A DNA stretch of 28,290 nucleotides, taken from positions 1 to 28,290 of IMG/VR virus record IMGVR_UViG_3300037451_000011. One strand, given 5' to 3'. Positions 4,606-19,097 of this stretch are shown here, piece after piece (the first letter of the stretch is position 1; each line of letters opens with the position of its first letter). The stretch is from a virus. The notes beneath the pieces were generated by a model. That model made no database searches. It was not told the DNA's origin and worked only from the letters and a program-made list of their open reading frames with translations. Made by a program: the position numbers and the translations under genes.

Positions 4606-5546
4606 GTCAGGCCGGCACCGGATATGATGGCAGTGTTTGAGAGTTGAAAAATGATCGTTGCCAAACCTATGCTACTCAGAGTTCTATTTCCTGAAGTGAC
4701 GCCATTTCCAGCCCAATATAGATTGACGCCAGTTCCCTGAACGATGGTGTAGGTATTAGTGCCGTTGCTGGCAAGCACGCTCACAATATCACCAGCTGAA
4801 AAAATTCCATTGGGAACCGTCAAAGTCTGTCCAGTAGATCCATTCAAAACTACAGTCTTTCCTCTGTCAGACAACTGTAGTGTGTAGTTAGACGATTGAG
4901 TATTTGTGGGTGTTCCACGCCATCCAACATCCTGTAGAGTCCCTCCTTGATCGATAGCCTGTGTTAGTCCATCACCCCGAACCTGAAAATACTCCGTACC
5001 TCCTGAAGAATTAAACACATTGAAAGCCACATCCGCAGAGGTGGTGCCTGCCAATACAGTGGCGCCAATGGACTGCCCGGATGTACCAGATCCTTGGAAA
5101 ACCGCAGCCGGCGAGTTGGCATGACCATTGACCGTCAGGGCAAATCCAGAGGTCGGGACGGGAATATTGACAGTTCCAGTGCCACTGATTGTTAGACGCG
5201 TAGAACCACCCGTCGCGAAGGAAATCTGCTGTGCGGTAGATAAAGTGAATGCGACTCCTGTCGCATCCGCTACGGAGAATGTCAGCGCTGGATTGTTTGA
5301 TCCGCCAGTCCTCCCCCATAGCGTAATATTGCCATCCGTCGCGCGAGTCAGATTGAGCTGCTGCTTCCAATTGAGGGTAGCATTGGGGATGTTCTGGCTA
5401 TCGATCGTGAGACAATTCTGGATACCTGCCGCGAAGTCATTATCCTCAAGATCGAACTTGGTGGAAGAGATGGGGAGACCGGAGTTGGCATCGTTGCCCC
5501 AGCTTGCATATCCTCTTGTGTATGTTCCACTACCGTTCCAGGGCAC
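4602..5546 (-). CDS. Tail fibre protein
   Basis: The 314-residue product starts with the N-terminal pattern widespread in podoviral fibres: MPWNGSGTYTRGYASWGND, then FDLEDNDFAAGIQNCLTIDS. This part probably attaches to the tail. The middle and C-terminal parts are Ser/Thr/Gly-rich beta repeats (VFNSSGGTEYFQVRGDG; TNTYTIVQGTG), ending in a beta-rich knob with LATIIFQLSNTAIISG. It should contact the host receptor. The start is a GTG at 5544-5546 with AGGTGA three bases upstream. Parts of the gene (roughly 4640-5000) look clearly more AT-rich than neighbouring genes, as is common in receptor-binding genes exchanged between phages. No enzyme motif is visible. Confidence 0.75.
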   Translation of the reverse strand: MPWNGSGTYTRGYASWGNDANSGLPISSTKFDLEDNDFAAGIQNCLTIDSQNIPNATLNWKQQLNLTRATDGNITLWGRTGGSNNPALTFSVADATGVAFTLSTAQQISFATGGSTRLTISGTGTVNIPVPTSGFALTVNGHANSPAAVFQGSGTSGQSIGATVLAGTTSADVAFNVFNSSGGTEYFQVRGDGLTQAIDQGGTLQDVGWRGTPTNTQSSNYTLQLSDRGKTVVLNGSTGQTLTVPNGIFSAGDIVSVLASNGTNTYTIVQGTGVNLYWAGNGVTSGNRTLSSIGLATIIFQLSNTAIISGAGLT

Positions 5547-5553
5547 GAGTCAC

Positions 5554-7260
5554 CTATTGAGGGTTTGAATTCTGTGCGGCGCGGTTGATCGCGGCTCGCA
5601 TGGTCGTTCCGGCGATCTCGCGCGCACCCTGGCTGGTCCTGGCTTTGAGTGCCTCCGCGAGCTGCTGAGCGTAACGCTGCGGCGCGGTCTGCCCGGCCAG
5701 GATGTTTCGACCGGTTTGCGTGCCGATCATGCCCAGCGCACCGGCCGCGCCCAATGCCGCGGGAATCTGCGCACCTGGGACAAAGTGATGGATAGCCAGC
5801 CCCGCACCGGCGAGTGCTCCAGTGGTTCCGTGGGATGCGCCAGTGCGAGGATTTCGCTCGGTGAATATGTCGCGGCCGGCGCTCGACCAGTCACGCATGA
5901 GGCCCCCGCCGCGAGCGTATTGGTTGTCCTCCGCCGCCGCCTTGACTGCCTGCGAGAGCTGGGCCGGCGTAAATCCGTGTGTTTGGTCGCCGCCTCGCTT
6001 AATGGCATCTCGGATGATCGCCAACTTCGGGTAGGCGTCATTGGCAGTCTGGAGAGCCTGCGCCGCATCTGCCGGGATCTGCTCGTTGATTGAGTCGGTG
6101 ATGCGATCCCTCGCAGATCTCAGCAGTTGAGCATACTTCTTCCCCGCCTGATCAACGCCTGCGCCTCGAATCTCCTCGTTGACTGCGGAGCGCAGCTGAA
6201 TGAGGTGCTCGCTTTTCCAGCCACCCGTAGAGTTGGCTTTTTCACCGATGGCGTCTATTTTTCCCTCGAGGAAATCTTGAGCATTTTGGCGAATATCGGC
6301 GCCCGCGCCGACAGTCCTATCGTTGGCCGCTTGCCTTAATGCATCGGCCAGTCCTTGATTTCGTGAGGGGATGGCTGGCTTGACCGGAAATCCCTCGGCC
6401 GCCTTGTACAGCGGACCGTACGAATCCTGTGTCTCTTTGAACAGCTCATTGGGGTCTAGGCTCTTGCTCTGTAGGACATGCCCCGGCGCCGCTGACTCCT
6501 CGATCACCCCGCGCTGGAAATCCTGCTGAGACTGCGTGCGGGCCTTCTCGACGATATTTCCCACTACCGGGACGCCGCGTACGTTCTCTTCGATCTTGTT
6601 CCAAATGCCTTCCGGGTTCATCTGGCCGGGAGTGAGACGGACCCCTTCGTCGATAAGCTGCTGAGCCTCAGGTGTGCGCCTCAGTCCATATGCCAGCTTT
6701 TGCCCGGCGGTCATGGTGGCTGGCAGAGCGAGTCCAGTGACGGCGCCAGTGAGCGCGCCTTCGCCCCTCTGGCCGGGATCCGCCATCAATGCACCCTGTC
6801 CAGCGCCCTCCGCGGCACCTGTAATGAAAGGATTGGAGATTGCCTTCGCACCTAACGATGTGGCACCGATAGCGCCTTCGGCGCCCATAGTTGCCGGGGC
6901 CAACATCGAGGTTTCTCCAACCAATGACCCAAATCTCCCGGCAGGCTGGCTCATCAGCGGCGCATCCAGCTGCCTGGCATTCTCGAGGTCCTGGTCCGAC
7001 TCCAATCCGATCAGATTTCCCGCATGACGCACGACATTGGTCATGCCGCGACCGATGCCCTCCAGCGTCATCTGGCCCTCGCCCTCGCCATATACCGGGC
7101 TGTTCTTCGGGATGGCGTATGGGTTGCCGGGTTTGACGCGGCCGATTTTCCACTCGGGGCTGCCCGGATCGAACTCGTCAAATGGATTGGCAGCCGAAGT
7201 AGCGGAAGTAGCGCCAGTAGCCGGTGACGTGTCGAACTCGTCGAATGGGTTAGTAGCCAT
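5554..7260 (-). CDS. Large ejection-type internal virion protein with NPFDEFD repeats
   Basis: The product of about 568 residues starts MATNPFDEFD and repeats NPFDEFD again after a short Ala/Ser/Thr linker. After a Gly/Pro-rich segment come long Ala/Gly-rich stretches that could insert in membranes (GAIGATSLGAKAISNPFITG; GALAGAGLAIHHF then AALGAAGALGMIG near the C-terminus). The middle is helical and charged. N-terminal NPFD-type motifs and small-residue membrane helices are typical of podoviral proteins ejected with the DNA, and the position next to another large internal protein and the fibre agrees. An alternative ATG lies five codons upstream (7275). No transglycosylase motif was recognised. 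The function is inferred from context. Confidence 0.65.
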   Translation of the reverse strand: MATNPFDEFDTSPATGATSATSAANPFDEFDPGSPEWKIGRVKPGNPYAIPKNSPVYGEGEGQMTLEGIGRGMTNVVRHAGNLIGLESDQDLENARQLDAPLMSQPAGRFGSLVGETSMLAPATMGAEGAIGATSLGAKAISNPFITGAAEGAGQGALMADPGQRGEGALTGAVTGLALPATMTAGQKLAYGLRRTPEAQQLIDEGVRLTPGQMNPEGIWNKIEENVRGVPVVGNIVEKARTQSQQDFQRGVIEESAAPGHVLQSKSLDPNELFKETQDSYGPLYKAAEGFPVKPAIPSRNQGLADALRQAANDRTVGAGADIRQNAQDFLEGKIDAIGEKANSTGGWKSEHLIQLRSAVNEEIRGAGVDQAGKKYAQLLRSARDRITDSINEQIPADAAQALQTANDAYPKLAIIRDAIKRGGDQTHGFTPAQLSQAVKAAAEDNQYARGGGLMRDWSSAGRDIFTERNPRTGASHGTTGALAGAGLAIHHFVPGAQIPAALGAAGALGMIGTQTGRNILAGQTAPQRYAQQLAEALKARTSQGAREIAGTTMRAAINRAAQNSNPQ

Positions 7261-10707: not shown

Positions 10708-11039
10708 TACATCACCGCCCTCTGCGCGAGGGGCGCGCCGGTACCGCCGCCCATCTGACCGAGCGCATTGGCGAGCATCTGAGGCCTATTCCCGACCGGC
10801 GGCTGCTGCCCCTGGTTAAGTGGTGGCAGAGATCCCCCTCGAGGAGGCTGCCCGACACCCGGCCGCAGCTGCGCCTCGCCCGGTACAGAGTACCGAGGTT
10901 GCATGTTCGTGATCGGCGCCGATCCCATGACCGGATAACTGGCACCGGGGATGCCGCTAGCTGTGCCCGCGGGCGGGCTGTAGGCCGCCGGTTTCGCGCC
11001 GCCACCGCTCATCCCGGGTCGAAAATTGTTTGCGCCCAT
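10707..11039 (-). CDS. Pro/Gly-rich disordered putative virion protein
   Basis: The 110-residue product starts MGANNFRPGMSGGGAKPAAY and is almost entirely Pro, Gly, Ala and Gln, ending in GGGTGAPLAQRAVM. No family is recognised. It overlaps the C-terminal end of the GNAT gene by 83 bases in another frame. The ATG has AGGGCGG four bases upstream, which supports it. Its stop overlaps the ATG of the S74-domain gene. Disordered composition shared with the downstream proteins suggests a minor structural component. Confidence 0.55.
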   Translation of the reverse strand: MGANNFRPGMSGGGAKPAAYSPPAGTASGIPGASYPVMGSAPITNMQPRYSVPGEAQLRPGVGQPPRGGSLPPLNQGQQPPVGNRPQMLANALGQMGGGTGAPLAQRAVM

Positions 11040-11475
11040 GAAACCGCCCTACGTTGAGGAATCGACACTCCTCGCGGAGCATGCCATAAACGATCAAATC
11101 ATCACCGTTTGGAAGGATTTTGCGCACGAGGCCCTCTCGGACGAACCCTAAGTGCTCATCGAAGCGCTGCGCCGGTAGGTTGCGAGAAGGCACCAGCCCG
11201 GTCACGCGCCTACACCCGAGCTGCTCGAAGGGATATCTGAATCCCTCGCCCAGGAATGACTTGCATAGCCAGCGACGCCCCGGAAGCGCCGCGACGTGCA
11301 TATGGATGTCGGTGCGGGTGTAGTTCTGGTAGATCACGCCGGCCAGTAGTGCGCCAGTCTGGTCCGCGAGACCGATCGCTGTATAGGGTGTCGTACCAAA
11401 CTCGAACACATCGATCTTGGACGCCACCCACTCCGCGACGCGCTTGTCCTGGTTGGCGATAATGAACCTACCCAT
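10957..11475 (-). CDS. GNAT-family N-acetyltransferase
   Basis: The 172-residue product has the beta-alpha layout of GNAT acyltransferases: N-terminal strand MGRFIIANQDKRV, strands around GALLAGVIYQNYT and DIHMHVAALP, a helix (GEGFRYPFEQLGC), then RRVTGLVPSRNLPAQRFDEHLGF and REGLVRKIL...DLIVYGMLREECRFL, which is the typical C-terminal region with the NLPAQRFxExLGF helix. GNATs transfer an acetyl group from acetyl-CoA to an amine. The classic glycine-rich CoA loop is not obvious. Similar GNATs occur within tail/virion modules of many proteobacterial phages; the substrate is unknown. The last 25 or so residues, beyond the usual end, overlap the next gene. Confidence 0.75.
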   Translation of the reverse strand: MGRFIIANQDKRVAEWVASKIDVFEFGTTPYTAIGLADQTGALLAGVIYQNYTRTDIHMHVAALPGRRWLCKSFLGEGFRYPFEQLGCRRVTGLVPSRNLPAQRFDEHLGFVREGLVRKILPNGDDLIVYGMLREECRFLNVGRFHGRKQFSTRDERWRRETGGLQPARGHS

Positions 11476-13114: not shown

Positions 13115-14089
13115 CTAACTTCCGAATCCTGTGTCAGGCACGTTGGATGAATTCAGTAGCCTAATTCCCGACGCCCGCGCGTTCAGTGGAAGATTTCGCG
13201 CCATCTGTGTGCGACCAGTGATGGCGGCGACCTTATCGTCATACTCCTGCCACTCATCTGCCCAGGCCATGCCGAGAGCCTTGAGAACTCGCCACTTGAG
13301 AGACATAGTGATGAGGTCTTCCGGGATAACGGCCGTGTCCGTGTCGAGCACGAATGCTGTCTGCACAGCCACTGTCGGCGCGCCGCTCAGAGCCACCCAA
13401 TTTATTGAGGCGTACTCGAGTACTAGTTGATCTGCGATCGGACTGGCCTGCCCCGTCGGCACATACGGCGCCGGATTCACGAATATCTGCCCGGCCATGA
13501 GCCGGTAGCGAAGACGCGGACCCACTGGACTGATGCCCGACTTGAGAACCTGCCACTCCTGGGCATTTACAGGCCCGAGCAGCTGCCACCGGAAGTTACG
13601 ATCCCATCCTGTTTGCGGGATGAAGTAGTTTAGGTCGGACGGCTGCGGATATGCCTCCTGCCCAAATGCCAGAGACGAGTCGACGCCCGTCACGCTGAGG
13701 GTGGGCACTGTGGAGTTCTGAGACATCGTCAAAGTGCCGGCGCCCGAATTCACGGATACGACGGCGGCGTCATTCAGAGCGAACGTAGAAGCCACCTGCC
13801 ATCCGGGCTGAACACCAGCCAGATTGATGCCAGTGATATTCGTAATGACCGGAGAATTCGCCGTGAATGTCCCAGTGAATGGCCCAATGCCGACCAGGTT
13901 GAATAGAAACTGCTTGCGCAGCGCCGGCCAGTAGTCCGACGCCTTTGTCACGTCCCGCAGCTCGAACCCGGATCGATTGGCGAGAGCGAATGCCTTGATG
14001 ACATTCGAGTCGGTGTTGCCGACGACCGTAGATGGCGGCGCCAGTCCTATCTCACCGAAAGCCTGCTGTACGATCGTGAGCAGCGACAT
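13115..14089 (-). CDS. Head-tail connector (tail adaptor) protein, gp4/tubular-A-like
   Basis: The 324-residue product begins MSLLTIVQQAFGEIGLAPPS and continues with a helical segment, SNVIKAFALANRSGFELRDV. This resembles N-terminal helices of podoviral adaptors that dock under the portal ring. The centre is a beta-domain insert (about residues 68-125). The C-terminal part returns to helical sequence (ALKALGMAWADEWQEYDDKV preceded by EDLITMSLKWRV), typical of this group. It lies directly before the nozzle gene, the usual position for the adaptor. The start overlaps the upstream stop (TGATG). The family is inferred from pattern and context. Confidence 0.65.
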   Translation of the reverse strand: MSLLTIVQQAFGEIGLAPPSTVVGNTDSNVIKAFALANRSGFELRDVTKASDYWPALRKQFLFNLVGIGPFTGTFTANSPVITNITGINLAGVQPGWQVASTFALNDAAVVSVNSGAGTLTMSQNSTVPTLSVTGVDSSLAFGQEAYPQPSDLNYFIPQTGWDRNFRWQLLGPVNAQEWQVLKSGISPVGPRLRYRLMAGQIFVNPAPYVPTGQASPIADQLVLEYASINWVALSGAPTVAVQTAFVLDTDTAVIPEDLITMSLKWRVLKALGMAWADEWQEYDDKVAAITGRTQMARNLPLNARASGIRLLNSSNVPDTGFGS

Positions 14090-14937
14090 CAGGCATCTTC
14101 CTTTTCCTCAGCGCTCTCAACGATCTCCCGGGTGCGCTTCGAGATCTTCACGGAGGCTGTCTTCAGCGGCTGAGGCGCGGGAGGCGCGGCCGCCTGCATC
14201 ATCGGCGCCTGTGCCCGCATACCCTGCGCAAACTGCGCCTGCATGTTCACGATGGTCGCCTCGAGCTGCTTGATCTTCTCATCCTGCAGAGCGACCTTTT
14301 CCTCTGCCCGTGACGCCTTGGCTTGCTCGCTGGCGACGATCTTGTTGCGCGTGCGCTCGTCGATCGCGGCCCGCGCCAGGTCGCGGTACTTGCGGCCGCC
14401 CATGATGGCGCCGGCATTGGCGTCTGACAGCGCGGCGAGTGCCTCAACCGTGGGGATGCTGAGGAGCTTGAGGGATTCGGCGTACGATCGCGTGACGACG
14501 CCCCACTCCTCGATCGGCCAGCCATCATCGGCTTTCTCGCCGCGGCGCATGAACCGCGCCCAGGCATTGGGGTACTTCGCGGTGTCGGGCCGATCACCGT
14601 TCGGACACTGCTGTAGCACCTCCCACGTCGTGTGATATTCACCCGAATCGGGATCTATCGCGGTGTCATACTCGATGCCGGACGCCAGCGTATCCCACAC
14701 GGTCTTGGAGTTGCCCGGCGCCACGATGCGCACCCAAATGCGGTCCTGGAAGATGGGAAAGCCCATGCTCTCCGTCAGGTATTCCATCGGATATGGCTTG
14801 ATGTAGAACTCAACAATCAACTCTCCGTCGAGCCCCGCTCCGCCCTCTCCCGAACGGCCATAGAGGACACGGCTCGAGTCCGACTTCGGGCTTTCGAGCA
14901 TGCGCGGGGGTGCGAACTGCGGCATATCGAGACTCAT
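14089..14937 (-). CDS. Hypothetical virion-module protein with C-terminal coiled coil
   Basis: The 282-residue product starts MSLDMPQFAPPRM at the ATG 14935-14937, which has GGAG nine bases upstream and overlaps the preceding stop; the frame opens 15 bases earlier. The first half is a mixed globular domain rich in Trp and Tyr (VEFYIKPYPMEYL; WARFMRRGEKADDGW). The second half is a long coiled coil (VASEQAKASRAEEKVALQDE then IKQLEATIVNMQAQF) and a Pro/Ala-rich tail. I do not recognise it as an enzyme. Its place between capsid and connector genes suggests a structural or assembly protein. Confidence 0.6.
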   Translation of the reverse strand: MSLDMPQFAPPRMLESPKSDSSRVLYGRSGEGGAGLDGELIVEFYIKPYPMEYLTESMGFPIFQDRIWVRIVAPGNSKTVWDTLASGIEYDTAIDPDSGEYHTTWEVLQQCPNGDRPDTAKYPNAWARFMRRGEKADDGWPIEEWGVVTRSYAESLKLLSIPTVEALAALSDANAGAIMGGRKYRDLARAAIDERTRNKIVASEQAKASRAEEKVALQDEKIKQLEATIVNMQAQFAQGMRAQAPMMQAAAPPAPQPLKTASVKISKRTREIVESAEEKEDA

Positions 14938-16877
14938 AGTGATTTTCTCCAACAGAAGTTTGCGCCGACCTCGACCTCACCAAACACTTCCTCGACCGCT
15001 CGCTTGACGCCCCATTGGGGATAGTCCGTGTTGTCATAGTCGTGGCCGGATATGAAGCCGCCCGGTTTGATCTTCGGTAGCCAAGCCTTGATATCCGCCA
15101 GGCAACACTCGTAAGAGTGATCAGCGTCAATAAAGACGAAGTCCAGTGACTCATCGGGCACCTTTGAGGCGACCGCCAATGACGTCGACCTCATAATCAG
15201 GGCACGCTGTCCGGCGAAGCGCACGGCCTTGACGGTCGATTCGTAGTAATGGTCCTGCTCGTGCTGGTTGAGCGATCCATGGAACTCGCCGAGTCCTTCT
15301 TCGCCATTGCCCGGAGCCCACGGGTCGACCATCAGGAGTTTCATGTCGGGACGATTCAGCAATAGACGCTGGGAGAGCGCACCGGTGAACACACCTATTT
15401 CCGCGCCCTGTGGGTGCGATATATCCTTAAGCCAAGACAGAATCTGCTGGGCGCGCTCGTCGACCGATGGCGGCTTCAGCAAGGAGGCAATGTGCGGGAT
15501 CAGGCCATCACCGAAGACGCGAATGACGCAGCCCTTCTCGAGAAGGAGCGGGACATGCTCTTTGAAGTCCTCCGCTTGAGTGACCATCCAGGGTGCGCAG
15601 CGGAATGAGCGTCCACCGACGCGCACGTCGAGCGTCTTCTCACCGTCGTTGAGAGACTGAGGGTAGGCGTGATGGTGCGCGCCGTCGTCGTAGCTCGAGT
15701 CGAAGCCGAAGAGGTTGATATGGCGGTGGCCGAGCATGTAGGCGAGGACAATGGCCTTCATACCGACCGTGGTGCCGCCGCCTATGCTAGGCACGTCGGC
15801 TTTGTCGAGTAGAGGTTGATACGATGTCATGGCTGCGTGCCAACAGACAAGATCGTCACCAGCCCACTGCAGAACGCCAGGATGACATTGCGAGGCGTAG
15901 TACTTGGGTATGGCGTCTCCCATATGCACGAAGTTCATCATCTCAATGCGCGCATCTAACATTATATGCGCATCTTCACGAATGCCATTCTGTCGAAGGA
16001 ATTCATGGGCGCCATTCGTAGCGTAGACCTTCGCACCGGACATCTGCATGCCGCGGATGTAGAATAGATTCGTCTCGAGACTCGGGCCACCGCCAACGAT
16101 GATTGCGGTACGCGTGTCATTGCCAGCCTTTACCCATCTACAGTCTCGCGCCATCGCCGAGAGTACATTAGCGCGTAGCTGGTCGTCCGGCACGTTGGAT
16201 TGCACGATCCACTCGATCGCAGAGCCGCCCCCTACTTTCCAGACTTCCGGAACCCAACCAGAAGTGACCTCATGGGGCCGGGGGTGGCCGTGGAAGAATA
16301 CGACCGAGGTGCCGCGTGGAATCTGGGTGCGGCAGTCAACCTTGAAGCTACGGAATTTGCCGGGGAAGATGTCTTGCCATAGGTCAATTGGCCAATTCCA
16401 CCCTTGTGAAATACATTGTTCAAACCATTCCTGATCTCCTCCCGATGGCAAAGGGCATCCTTGTTGATACCATCTCTGCCAAAAAAGATGGGTACAATTC
16501 AGAGATTCCCACGCCATTACACTGGATTGAAGCCCATTAGGACGGTATGCATCCCTAAGAATGGCAAACGGACCATTATATCGCGCAATCTCATCCAGAG
16601 GACCCGTGATGACCGTATCCAGATCGAAGTACAACACCCTCTCGCCCGGAGGAAATGTATCGCTGCAGAACAAGTACATCTTGTTCCACCACCCCTCCAG
16701 TCCCTCGGGCAGAGGCCTGGCTTTGATACCAGTCTCTAGCCCGATAGGGTCATCCGTGAAACAGGTAAAGTCTCCTGAAAATCCCGCAGGTAGATTCCGC
16801 CGCACCATGTCAAACAGGGTGTTGACATACTTAGGGCCGTACAGCTTGCCCCACTTCACACAACATACCCTTAACAT
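14934..16877 (-). CDS. Three-domain fusion: GT-A glycosyltransferase, DUF115/MptE-like, class I methyltransferase
   Basis: The 647-residue protein has three recognisable parts. Residues 1-210 look like a GT8-type GT-A glycosyltransferase: WWNKMYLF (63-70), the DxD metal motif in YFDLDTVI (D85, D87), GGDQEW (146-151) and a C-terminal HGH (196-198). Residues about 235-470 match the DUF115/MptE-like fold found in flagellin-modifying Maf proteins: IIVGGGPSLETN (259-270), TNGAHEFLRQNGI (287-299) and GFDSSYDDGAHHHAY (391-405). Residues about 475-647 form a SAM-dependent methyltransferase: AEIGVFTGALS (492-502), MVDPW (516-520), DFVFIDADHSYE (579-590), IKPGGFISGHDY (603-614). The product probably builds, caps or methylates a glycan on virion or host surface. 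The target is unknown. GGAG lies seven bases before the ATG, inside the end of the HNH gene. Confidence 0.85.
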   Translation of the reverse strand: MLRVCCVKWGKLYGPKYVNTLFDMVRRNLPAGFSGDFTCFTDDPIGLETGIKARPLPEGLEGWWNKMYLFCSDTFPPGERVLYFDLDTVITGPLDEIARYNGPFAILRDAYRPNGLQSSVMAWESLNCTHLFWQRWYQQGCPLPSGGDQEWFEQCISQGWNWPIDLWQDIFPGKFRSFKVDCRTQIPRGTSVVFFHGHPRPHEVTSGWVPEVWKVGGGSAIEWIVQSNVPDDQLRANVLSAMARDCRWVKAGNDTRTAIIVGGGPSLETNLFYIRGMQMSGAKVYATNGAHEFLRQNGIREDAHIMLDARIEMMNFVHMGDAIPKYYASQCHPGVLQWAGDDLVCWHAAMTSYQPLLDKADVPSIGGGTTVGMKAIVLAYMLGHRHINLFGFDSSYDDGAHHHAYPQSLNDGEKTLDVRVGGRSFRCAPWMVTQAEDFKEHVPLLLEKGCVIRVFGDGLIPHIASLLKPPSVDERAQQILSWLKDISHPQGAEIGVFTGALSQRLLLNRPDMKLLMVDPWAPGNGEEGLGEFHGSLNQHEQDHYYESTVKAVRFAGQRALIMRSTSLAVASKVPDESLDFVFIDADHSYECCLADIKAWLPKIKPGGFISGHDYDNTDYPQWGVKRAVEEVFGEVEVGANFCWRKSL

Positions 16878-17305
16878 CTGAATTCTCCAATGCCGAGGTG
16901 CTTTCTAGCGTTTCTTCTGGAGCACTGGATACAGTATCTTCTTCCTCCGTAAAAGGCGGTATTTTCCTCATTCATTGCATGTCCATGCTTGCAATGAGTC
17001 TGTGGATTTGAACGCCTTTTCAAGTTGATGGATGGCCCAAGACCTCTCTGAAAATTCACCTTCTGAGGGACCGCTTCGAGATGCTCGGGATTTACGCAGT
17101 TACGGAGGCGGCATAAATGATCAATGACGAGGGACCCATCTATCGATTGCAGATTGTGATGTATGCGATAAGCGAAGCGATGAGCGTATTCGTTCTCCTG
17201 ACGCTCGTTCCTAACTTTCCCGTATCCATTCTGGGAAATGGCGCCTTGCCATAGAACGCAACCTGAAGGATCAGTGGTGCACCGCTTCGCGAATCGCTCA
17301 ATCAC
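16871..17305 (-). CDS. HNH endonuclease (homing-type)
   Basis: The 144-residue product has a clear HNH core: AHRFAY (41-46), then IDHLCRLRNCVNPEHLEAV (61-79) with the catalytic His63 and the Asn/His pair N72/H75. Downstream THCKHGH (104-110) and RRYCIQCSRRN (122-132) form a likely second zinc-binding unit. Such free-standing HNH enzymes cut DNA and often spread as homing genes; some aid terminase, but this one is far from the terminase genes. The GTG start abuts the stop of the preceding gene without a gap and has GAGGG upstream. The gene looks more AT-rich than its neighbours, which agrees with mobility. Confidence 0.9.
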   Translation of the reverse strand: MIERFAKRCTTDPSGCVLWQGAISQNGYGKVRNERQENEYAHRFAYRIHHNLQSIDGSLVIDHLCRLRNCVNPEHLEAVPQKVNFQRGLGPSINLKRRSNPQTHCKHGHAMNEENTAFYGGRRYCIQCSRRNARKHLGIGEFRC

Positions 17306-18103
17306 TCAGGCACCCTCGAGCTGACCGTGGTTGGGGTAGTAGACCAATACCAGACTCTGCGTTGATGTGGTGGTTGAAGTGGCGATGCGGCTTCCGAGGA
17401 TCGCACCGCCGGCCGAAGCCGTTCCATAGATGCGACCCGCCGTGCCTGATACATACCCCGCCGTATTCGGCGTGATCTGCACAGCCGTCTTCAAGGTCCA
17501 CGCCCGGCCGCTGATCTGATACCAGGCGACCGTGATCTGGTTGGCCTGAGATGCGAGGCCGGAGCCATCGTAGAGTGGCGTGATCGGGAAGACCGTACCC
17601 TGCGTGAGAGCCTGGGAGGTGGCGCCCACCGCCGCGCTCGATACCGCTACCGCGACCGGCACGCTCGTCTTCTGGCTCGTGGCCTTCGCCGGCAGAGTCG
17701 TAATCAGGTAGGTAGCATCCCACTGGACCAGCGTGCCTACAGGTAGTGCATTCGACACCGGGTTACGCAGAGCGATGAACTCAGCCCATCCCAATGTCGG
17801 TTCCCACGCAGTTATGATCTGCCCGGGCGAGACAGGGAAAATAGGCGTAGGTAGCACCGGGCTTGTCACAGTTCCGGGTGTGGTCGCGGCCGACTCAGGC
17901 TTCAGAAATACCGTGTTGAATCCCGCATATGGACCTGGCAGATCCGCCCATACACGCCCTATATCGTAGTCGCCGAGCTGGTTGTTCTGAGCCACCCAGT
18001 TGTAAGAGACGCCATTGGTCACGGTGGTTGGAAATCCCGGAGGCACGTAGGTCTGCGAGGCGAAAGGCGATACCGGGGTTGCTTTGAGTGTGATGATTCC
18101 CAT
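17306..18103 (-). CDS. Putative capsid decoration or head-associated protein
   Basis: The 265-residue product directly follows the major capsid gene with a strong Shine-Dalgarno (AAGGAG). It begins MGIITLKATPVSPFASQTYV and is beta-rich and low in charge, with segments such as FPVSPGQIITAWEPTLGWAE and GTLVQWDATYLITTLPAKAT, and a C-terminus with QSLVLVYYPNHGQLEGA. There are no enzyme motifs. Position and composition point to a head-decorating (cementing) or other virion protein. I do not recognise the family, so the role is from context only. Confidence 0.6.
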   Translation of the reverse strand: MGIITLKATPVSPFASQTYVPPGFPTTVTNGVSYNWVAQNNQLGDYDIGRVWADLPGPYAGFNTVFLKPESAATTPGTVTSPVLPTPIFPVSPGQIITAWEPTLGWAEFIALRNPVSNALPVGTLVQWDATYLITTLPAKATSQKTSVPVAVAVSSAAVGATSQALTQGTVFPITPLYDGSGLASQANQITVAWYQISGRAWTLKTAVQITPNTAGYVSGTAGRIYGTASAGGAILGSRIATSTTTSTQSLVLVYYPNHGQLEGA

Positions 18104-18113
18104 ATATCTCTCC

Positions 18114-19097
18114 TTACGCGGCCAACAGGCCCTGGAGGAAGCGATTCGACGTGGTCATGTTGCCGGCGAAGCCGACGAGCTTAACCATCGCATCCTGGTT
18201 GACCGCAAAACGCTCGTCCCCGAGGGGCGAAAAGTTTCGATCCTGATGGGGGCGGAAGAATATGTACTTCGTGTTCAGGAAGAACATTGTGTTAGTAGGA
18301 GCGCCGCCACCTAAGCCGCCGTCCAGAACCACGTCGCAGTTCATATACTTCAAGGTCTGGAAGCCGAGCTCGGCCAGATCCTCATCGCCGACACGCTGCA
18401 GGGCCTGCATACTCTCCAGGTAGTAGCGGTAGAAGTTGTTGTCGGCAACGATCAGATCCGGCGCATCGGCGCCGCGCACCAACTGTAGGTAGACGCGGTT
18501 CATGTAGGTCTGGATGGTGGCCGTCGAGACAGCGGCGCCGCCCGTGGTCAAGCCGCTGAAGAATACGTTGCGCCAGAACTGCCACACTGACGGATCAATA
18601 CCGCCCACTATCCCGGAAGAAGGCGTCGCGGATACCAACAGCTGAAGGCCACCAATCTGCCGTCCGCCATCCGCAGTGCCGTTTGAATAGATGTCTAGGG
18701 CGACGTTGTTGGTGAGAGTCTGCTCGGCGTTCTCGATGCGCCCTTCCAACAGGTCTATAATCGCCTCTTCGCCGGAGTTCTGTAGCATCTCGAGGCCCGA
18801 GATGGAGACGGCGACCGCGGCCTGGGCATAGTTGTACTCGGCTCCGGTGAAGACATCAGACGGGCTGATGTTGAGGGCCTCGTACCCGGAGTATCGCTTG
18901 TAGGTGCCGTTTTCCTGGTAGTTGAGTTCCTGGACGATGGTTCGACCACCGGAAACAGGTTTGACCCGGCCGCGCGCTCTCAATCGATAGAGCAGAGCAT
19001 TGTTTTTCGTGACGTTGTCGGCCAACTTACCCGTGCGATTGCGCAGGGTCGTGGTCACGATTTCCGTCATCGTGGCTGAAGGATTGATAAGTGCCAT
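18114..19097 (-). CDS. Major capsid protein
   Basis: The 327-residue product has the features of an HK97-fold capsid subunit of podoviral type: N-terminal MALINPSATMTEIVTTTLRN, a region with SGGRTIVQELNYQENGTYKR and YSGYEALNISPSDVFTGAEY that looks like the E-loop, a long spine helix (EEAIIDLLEGRIENAEQTLTN), and C-terminal A-domain strands (PDLIVADNNFYRYYLESMQA; NTMFFLNTKYIFFRP). Length is in the normal range for capsid proteins without a prohead protease domain. It follows a scaffold gene with a 19-base gap and has GGGAG five bases before the ATG. It should form the T-number shell around the packaged genome. Confidence 0.9.
   Translation of the reverse strand: MALINPSATMTEIVTTTLRNRTGKLADNVTKNNALLYRLRARGRVKPVSGGRTIVQELNYQENGTYKRYSGYEALNISPSDVFTGAEYNYAQAAVAVSISGLEMLQNSGEEAIIDLLEGRIENAEQTLTNNVALDIYSNGTADGGRQIGGLQLLVSATPSSGIVGGIDPSVWQFWRNVFFSGLTTGGAAVSTATIQTYMNRVYLQLVRGADAPDLIVADNNFYRYYLESMQALQRVGDEDLAELGFQTLKYMNCDVVLDGGLGGGAPTNTMFFLNTKYIFFRPHQDRNFSPLGDERFAVNQDAMVKLVGFAGNMTTSNRFLQGLLAA

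Follow-up and report, generated by a model that had tools for sequence, protein, structure and literature searches.

A GT8-like, Maf-like and methyltransferase fusion in the virion module of Mx8-type phages, a candidate enzyme for glycosylation of the phage particle

The 638-residue A064R protein of the chlorovirus PBCV-1 joins a glycosyltransferase (residues 1-212), a second glycosyltransferase of an unrelated family (213-438) and a SAM-dependent O-methyltransferase (439-638) in one chain; antigenic variants and in-vitro assay identified D1 and D2 as rhamnosyltransferases and D3 as a 2-O-methyltransferase acting on the capsid glycan (PMC9614988). Maf proteins glycosylate Ser and Thr residues of flagellin, and the central domain of Maf resembles Cst-II (PMC11339370). 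The mycobacteriophages Che8, Corndog and Myrna glycosylate proteins of the capsid and the tail tube with glycosyltransferases of their own (PMC12363180, citing Freeman 2023), and that account describes no triple fusion, PF01973 domain or fixed capsid-side cassette. Two multidomain UniProt/BFVD entries (A0A6J5PVH5 and A0A6J7XC21), named 'MptE-like [uncultured Caudovirales phage]', match the protein described below strongly in both structure and sequence, over 486-670 columns; their annotation is automatic, and the literature found describes no function or system for them. Nor did we find literature linking DUF115/MptE-like proteins to a phage system. The phage glycosyltransferases of PHROG 1962, including PmgQ of P1 and HdmD of P7, are relatives of the first domain of our protein at about 29-36% identity; the match spans that domain only, and they are fused to neither PF01973 nor a methyltransferase.

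The window analysed here, 28,290 bp long, comprises an entire IMG/VR virus record that may be a genome fragment; one gene in it encodes all three domains (Table 1). A sequence-only reading had reported a single continuous frame at this site while omitting its strand; the frame is present on the minus strand, opening with an ATG at 16877 behind a GGAG Shine-Dalgarno sequence at about 16885-16888, and running without internal stops to a stop codon at 14934-14936. The motifs listed in that reading were all recovered in place: DLD at residues 85-87, GGGPSL at 262-267, GFDSSYDDGAHHHAY at 391-405, and EIGVFTG, FIDADHSYE and KPGGFISGHDY. A frameshift or assembly artefact joining separate genes is ruled out, as the same frame recurs in more than 30 other metagenome contigs with an omega of 0.04-0.27 in each of the three domains (dS being near saturation), and this purifying selection is accompanied by motif residues that are near-invariant among 28-32 relatives. 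The proposal that the active-site signatures are intact holds for these motifs in all three domains; the one correction concerns H198, which is kept in 10 of 30 relatives. The fusion is real, conserved and functional-looking, and its context adds meaning beyond the earlier reading. It has no membrane segment (maximum 19-residue hydropathy 1.35), and a model of the full-length protein has a pTM of 0.58, so that the placement of the domains relative to one another is uncertain.

Table 1. Coordinates of the fusion gene, its domains and the neighbouring genes in the window
Feature	Coordinates	Strand	Basis
Tail/neck protein closing the slot	13115..14089	minus	phrog_6013 1e-38
p50-type neck/structural gene, start codon overlapping the fusion stop (ATGA)	14089..14937	minus	Mx8 p50 homologue by profile
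GT8-like / Maf-like (PF01973) / Methyltransf_24 fusion gene, 647 aa	14934..16877	minus	one frame in >30 IMG/VR contigs
Domain 3 (residues 486-647), Methyltransf_24 class I SAM O-methyltransferase; E493-x-G-V-F-x-G, D584-A-D-H587, G-H612-D613	14937..15422	minus	PF13578
Domain 2 (residues 225-470), PF01973/DUF115, Maf- and GT42-sialyltransferase-like	15468..16205	minus	PF01973, Maf 5mu5
Domain 1 (residues 1-214), GT8-like; D85-x-D87, G147-D148-Q149, H196-G-x-P-x-P	16236..16877	minus	phrog_1962, GT8-type structures
HNH endonuclease inserted ahead of the fusion, after the virion protein gene	16871..17305	minus	phrog_826 5e-39; PF13392
Putative head-decoration virion protein at the position of Mx8 p49, adjoining the slot on its upstream side; candidate acceptor	17306..18103	minus	iterated profile
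Mx8-type major capsid protein (MCP); the other candidate acceptor	18114..19097	minus	phrog_9953 1e-125

Domain and profile searches (PF01973, PF13578, PHROG 1962 and a GT8-type structure) support the three enzyme classes that had been proposed. PHROG 1962 matches residues 7-214 (E=9e-29), and a profile of domain 1 finds the GT8-type structure 6mw5 (E=1.8e-7) as well as glycogenin; Foldseek matches its AF2 model to GlyE and glycogenin. Three features of GT8 enzymes are present, namely a GT-A fold (that of glycogenin and GlyE), a DxD motif (D85 in 29/29 relatives, D87 in 28/29) and a C-terminal metal-binding histidine, H196, which is invariant (30/30); of the H196-x-H198 pair suggested earlier, only this first member is thus conserved. 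Pfam PF01501 (GT8) gives no match to the fusion protein of the window at E<=1, and reaches E=0.23 in the related locus L052. As the assignment is by profile and fold, 'GT8-like' is the proper term.

Domain 2 scores well above the curated cut-off of PF01973, MptE-like (Maf_flag10), with 72.7 bits against 34.6 (E=4e-20). The Pfam name raises the reading, which we regard as highly improbable, that this is a 6-hydroxymethylpterin diphosphokinase or another pyrophosphokinase and that the fusion serves cofactor or nucleotide metabolism; the fold also matches an archaeal pterin kinase, and a neighbour of the fusion in L045 carries a CTP-dependent riboflavin kinase-like domain. When a profile built from 50 sequences was compared with known structures, however, Maf (5mu5) came first at E=7e-17, followed by the archaeal pterin kinase 8sd5 (4e-5) and Cst-II (about 3e-3), and the gap between the first two, 64.5 against 26 bits, is about 38 bits. 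Foldseek ranks the AF2 model of the domain (pLDDT 94, pTM 0.91) in the same direction, with Maf 5mu5 ahead of the pterin kinase and mammalian sialyltransferases after it, and the G-I-D-F-Y...Y-A-F stretch of Campylobacter-type sialyltransferases aligns with GFDSSY...HHAY of domain 2. The pterin kinase identity is disfavoured by these Maf-first matches, and the link between DUF115 and Maf that had been drawn is upheld by them. A characterised kinase is not the closest relative, and in place of a pterin pathway the fusion partners and neighbours are glycan enzymes, in a slot that adjoins capsid genes. By profile and predicted fold, domain 2 is Maf- and sialyltransferase-like rather than pterin-kinase-like. 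It is the central catalytic domain of Maf that gives this best sequence and fold match; Maf has N- and C-terminal domains of its own and acts on flagellin, whereas these domains and a flagellin locus are absent here, their places being taken by GT8-like and Methyltransf_24 partners and by capsid neighbours. Maf transfers a nonulosonic acid to Ser or Thr of its protein substrate; no nonulosonate genes were noted in the slots examined.

Domain 3 has the features of a class I Methyltransf_24 enzyme: PF13578 matches with 59.2 bits against a curated cut-off of 26.3 (E=8e-16), SAM motif I and the D-x-D-H and H-D motifs are present, and E493, D584, H587, H612 and D613 are invariant in the relatives. 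Phages glycosylate DNA, and the methyltransferase domain matches a PHROG named 'DNA methyltransferase', so the cassette might serve to modify the bases of phage DNA, by making the modifying group or by attaching it; we consider this scarcely probable, given that Methyltransf_24 and FkbM are not among the usual DNA methyltransferase families, that the closest folds are sugar or small-molecule O-methyltransferases (MycF, NovP and MeT1 among them by Foldseek), and that the scanned ORFs of the window included none noted as a base-hypermodification gene.

The best reading of this architecture and its proposed role is that the fusion would be a phage analogue of A064R. The two are almost the same size, and each places two glycosyltransferase domains and a methyltransferase domain in that order in one soluble virus-encoded chain with a role, in our case proposed, in a capsid glycan. 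A064R differs in belonging to a eukaryotic algal virus, in extending an existing N-glycan of the major capsid protein, and in its domain 2, described as a new rhamnosyltransferase family, ours being PF01973. No A064R homologue was recognised among the PDB matches listed for the fusion, and an unnamed 638-residue BFVD entry matches it weakly. As the likeness is one of size, order and proposed role, the fusion would work like A064R, which is not to call it an A064R. The earlier reading had held the three-part arrangement not to be a described one. In the sources searched it is new as a phage architecture; it is not categorically new, since there are precedents both for a GT-GT-MT capsid enzyme and for virion glycosylation by phages, A064R having been characterised and multidomain MptE-like phage proteins standing in UniProt/BFVD. 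As far as those sources show, what is new is the phage architecture, the Maf-type domain beside capsid genes, and the conserved cassette slot.

The location of the fusion within a virion gene cluster, as claimed previously, is borne out, with capsid and virion-protein genes on one side and p50 and tail genes on the other. The module has the Mx8-type order of terminase, portal, scaffold-like protein, MCP, p49-type protein, HNH, fusion, p50, tail protein, p52 and GNAT, and the MCP is 61% identical to that of Bradyrhizobium phage ppBjS10J-1, the nearest cultured capsid, and 49-50% to those of Mx8 and Mx9. The label 'decoration protein' for the p49-type product comes from its position and from a profile whose iterations bring in Mx8 p49, itself annotated as 'virion structural protein'; neither Pfam nor PHROG gives a match. 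The stop codon of the fusion and the ATG of the p50-type gene overlap at 14934-14937, which makes translational coupling of the enzyme to this downstream virion gene probable.

Relatives were collected from IMG/VR by two peptide motifs irrespective of context, giving 51 loci. The search for the same domain order in other phages that had been recommended yields 30 non-identical sequences, including the window, with the full GT8-MptE-MT24 order and identities of 42-83%. Mx8-type head or tail genes adjoin all 51 loci, both flanks being visible in 44, and the slot occupied, in modules of the Mx8 podovirus type, is bounded by the p49-type virion gene on one side and by p50 and the tail genes on the other. 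The lineage bearing the fusion is known from metagenomes only. The corresponding slots of the cultured phages Mx8, BUCT555, ppBjS10J-1, RHph_I3_18, Mwe-JY13 and 45A6 contain no recognisable fusion, and a tblastn search of 50,697 cultured phage records with the MptE domain of the window gave no match at E<=0.01. Among the matches listed in such records for the GT8-MptE protein of L090, whose IMG/VR identifier suggests an isolate genome, only the GT domain is covered. Two peptide-pattern scans of bacterial genomes and prophages gave no homologue, a weak negative owing to the narrowness of the patterns.

A survey anchored on the MCP covered 80 loci, near-duplicates included, with both slot boundaries present in 67. 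The slot is short in 40 of the 67 and long (>1.3 kb) in 27, and a PF01973-type domain occurs in 24/27 long slots against 0/40 short ones; as any inserted gene lengthens the slot, the association with length is partly mechanical, and only the content of long slots is informative. On the MCP tree the module was gained or lost at least eight times. Its composition varies in a manner that fits glycan synthesis, as judged from domain matches. FkbM, a family unrelated to Methyltransf_24, replaces the latter as a fused domain on three separate branches of the GT8-MptE tree (L038-L041, L044, L045) and is a separate gene in the same slot elsewhere (L053, L086, L090, L100, L102); it was not found in MptE-negative loci of the survey. 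GT2 domains precede GT8-MptE in L047, L049 and L052, the slot of L052 also holds a Polysacc_synt_2 dehydratase (4,6-dehydratase) and FdtA, and FdtA recurs in L049, with a hexose C-methyltransferase in L047, a weakly matching sulfotransferase in L053 and a hexapeptide transferase in L101. That parts fused in the window are separate and adjacent elsewhere points to one pathway.

The fixed place of the module can also reflect a slot that tolerates insertions, which HNH genes enter too, and the fusion might then be cargo, a moron gene without a constant virion role among assorted genes; the many loci with a short slot and no module are compatible with this. We judge it very unlikely, because a protein of glycosyltransferase type is found in nearly every long slot, omega is low and the methyltransferase role has been refilled repeatedly. 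The long slots of L094 and L097 lack PF01973 and carry a different insert, which in L094 encodes a TPR protein that Glyco_transf_9 matches; that of L112 contains a methyltransferase-like gene and an unassigned protein, again without PF01973. The gene at L094:7055-8443 (also in L097) combines TPR repeats with a Glyco_transf_9-like region in an OGT-like layout, and may be another route to virion glycosylation.

We propose, with a probability of about two in three, that the fusion is soluble, acts late and assembles a short glycan carrying O-methyl groups, the acceptor probably being a virion surface protein, so that the phage would decorate its own particle. Order of action, sugar identity, acceptor, benefit to the phage and late expression are what we infer. 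The Maf-like domain would most likely place the first sugar on the acceptor protein, the GT8-like domain being less likely in this role; the DxD-type GT8-like domain would then extend it with a sugar from an NDP-sugar, or the two would act in reverse order; and the Methyltransf_24 domain would cap the product by O-methylation of the sugar. The acceptor would most likely be the p49-type virion protein or the MCP, encoded by adjacent genes.

The sequence-only reading had suggested a self-contained enzyme that adds and methylates a sugar, perhaps on the capsid decoration protein or on the host surface. LPS synthesis commonly involves GT8 enzymes and sugar O-methyltransferases, and the virion acceptor is a candidate; the enzyme might instead modify host LPS or EPS, blocking superinfection or hiding the infected cell, with its site in the virion cluster giving only late expression. 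We think this unlikely. The protein has no membrane segment, no flippase or gtrA/gtrB-like partner was seen in the slots examined, the gene sits constantly between capsid and tail genes and its ATGA overlap couples it to a virion gene, and the enzyme that domain 2 matches best, Maf, has a protein as its substrate. The case for virion glycosylation is now far stronger than on the earlier reading, given the constant slot and its interchangeable glycan cassettes, and the presence of glycan genes of dozens of related phages in one spot suggests that these phages dress their particles in methylated sugars.

The Ser/Thr content of MptE-positive phages was considered as a possible sign of the acceptor. 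It is higher in both the p49-type protein (p=0.008) and the MCP (p=0.0008) before correction for relatedness; after correction the MCP difference is no longer significant (median p 0.22), which leaves both proteins as candidate acceptors.

A broader proposal, for which we see the chances as evenly balanced, is that Mx8-type phages own a dedicated and exchangeable capsid-glycosylation locus. In this one fixed slot beside the capsid gene, enzymes built on PF01973 would be exchanged, together with methyltransferases and genes for sugar nucleotides, in the manner of serotype cassettes, and the methylated glycan coat would differ from phage to phage; the triple fusion would represent the locus in self-contained form and would be the first counterpart of A064R known in a phage, its Maf-type domain acting on a capsid protein and not on flagellin. 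Such a locus would account for the high variability of the slot. If our reading is correct, an environmental phage lineage coats its capsids with enzymatically built methylated glycans through a protein laid out, by parallel evolution, like one from a giant virus of algae to which the phages are unrelated, and the domain employed is one familiar chiefly from the glycosylation of flagellin. Annotations such as 'MptE-like' and 'DNA methyltransferase' would become a testable virion-glycosylation locus, and the fusion would offer work on protein glycosylation a compact enzyme in a single chain.

Several further features of these modules were observed. The homing-type HNH gene of the window has an 88% identical counterpart in L004 and is missing in L001, and other HNH-like genes lie near the same spot in L037, L086, L095 and L104. 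Beside the GT8-MptE-FkbM gene of L045, the gene at 5162-6118 joins a SAM methyltransferase-like region to the CTP-dependent riboflavin kinase-like domain (PF01982), an odd content for a capsid module. The start of the MCP gene seems broken or shifted in frame relative to relatives in L004:3052-4041 and L013:4862-5833, which may be an assembly error. Mx8 p53 bears the note 'potential holin', and the GNAT-like acyltransferase at 10957-11475 (minus strand; phrog_4470) is conserved in the same module of most Mx8-type phages. Two separate PF01973-type genes lie in or around one slot at L109:10667-13163, where they flank p50, and at L120:7331-10124.
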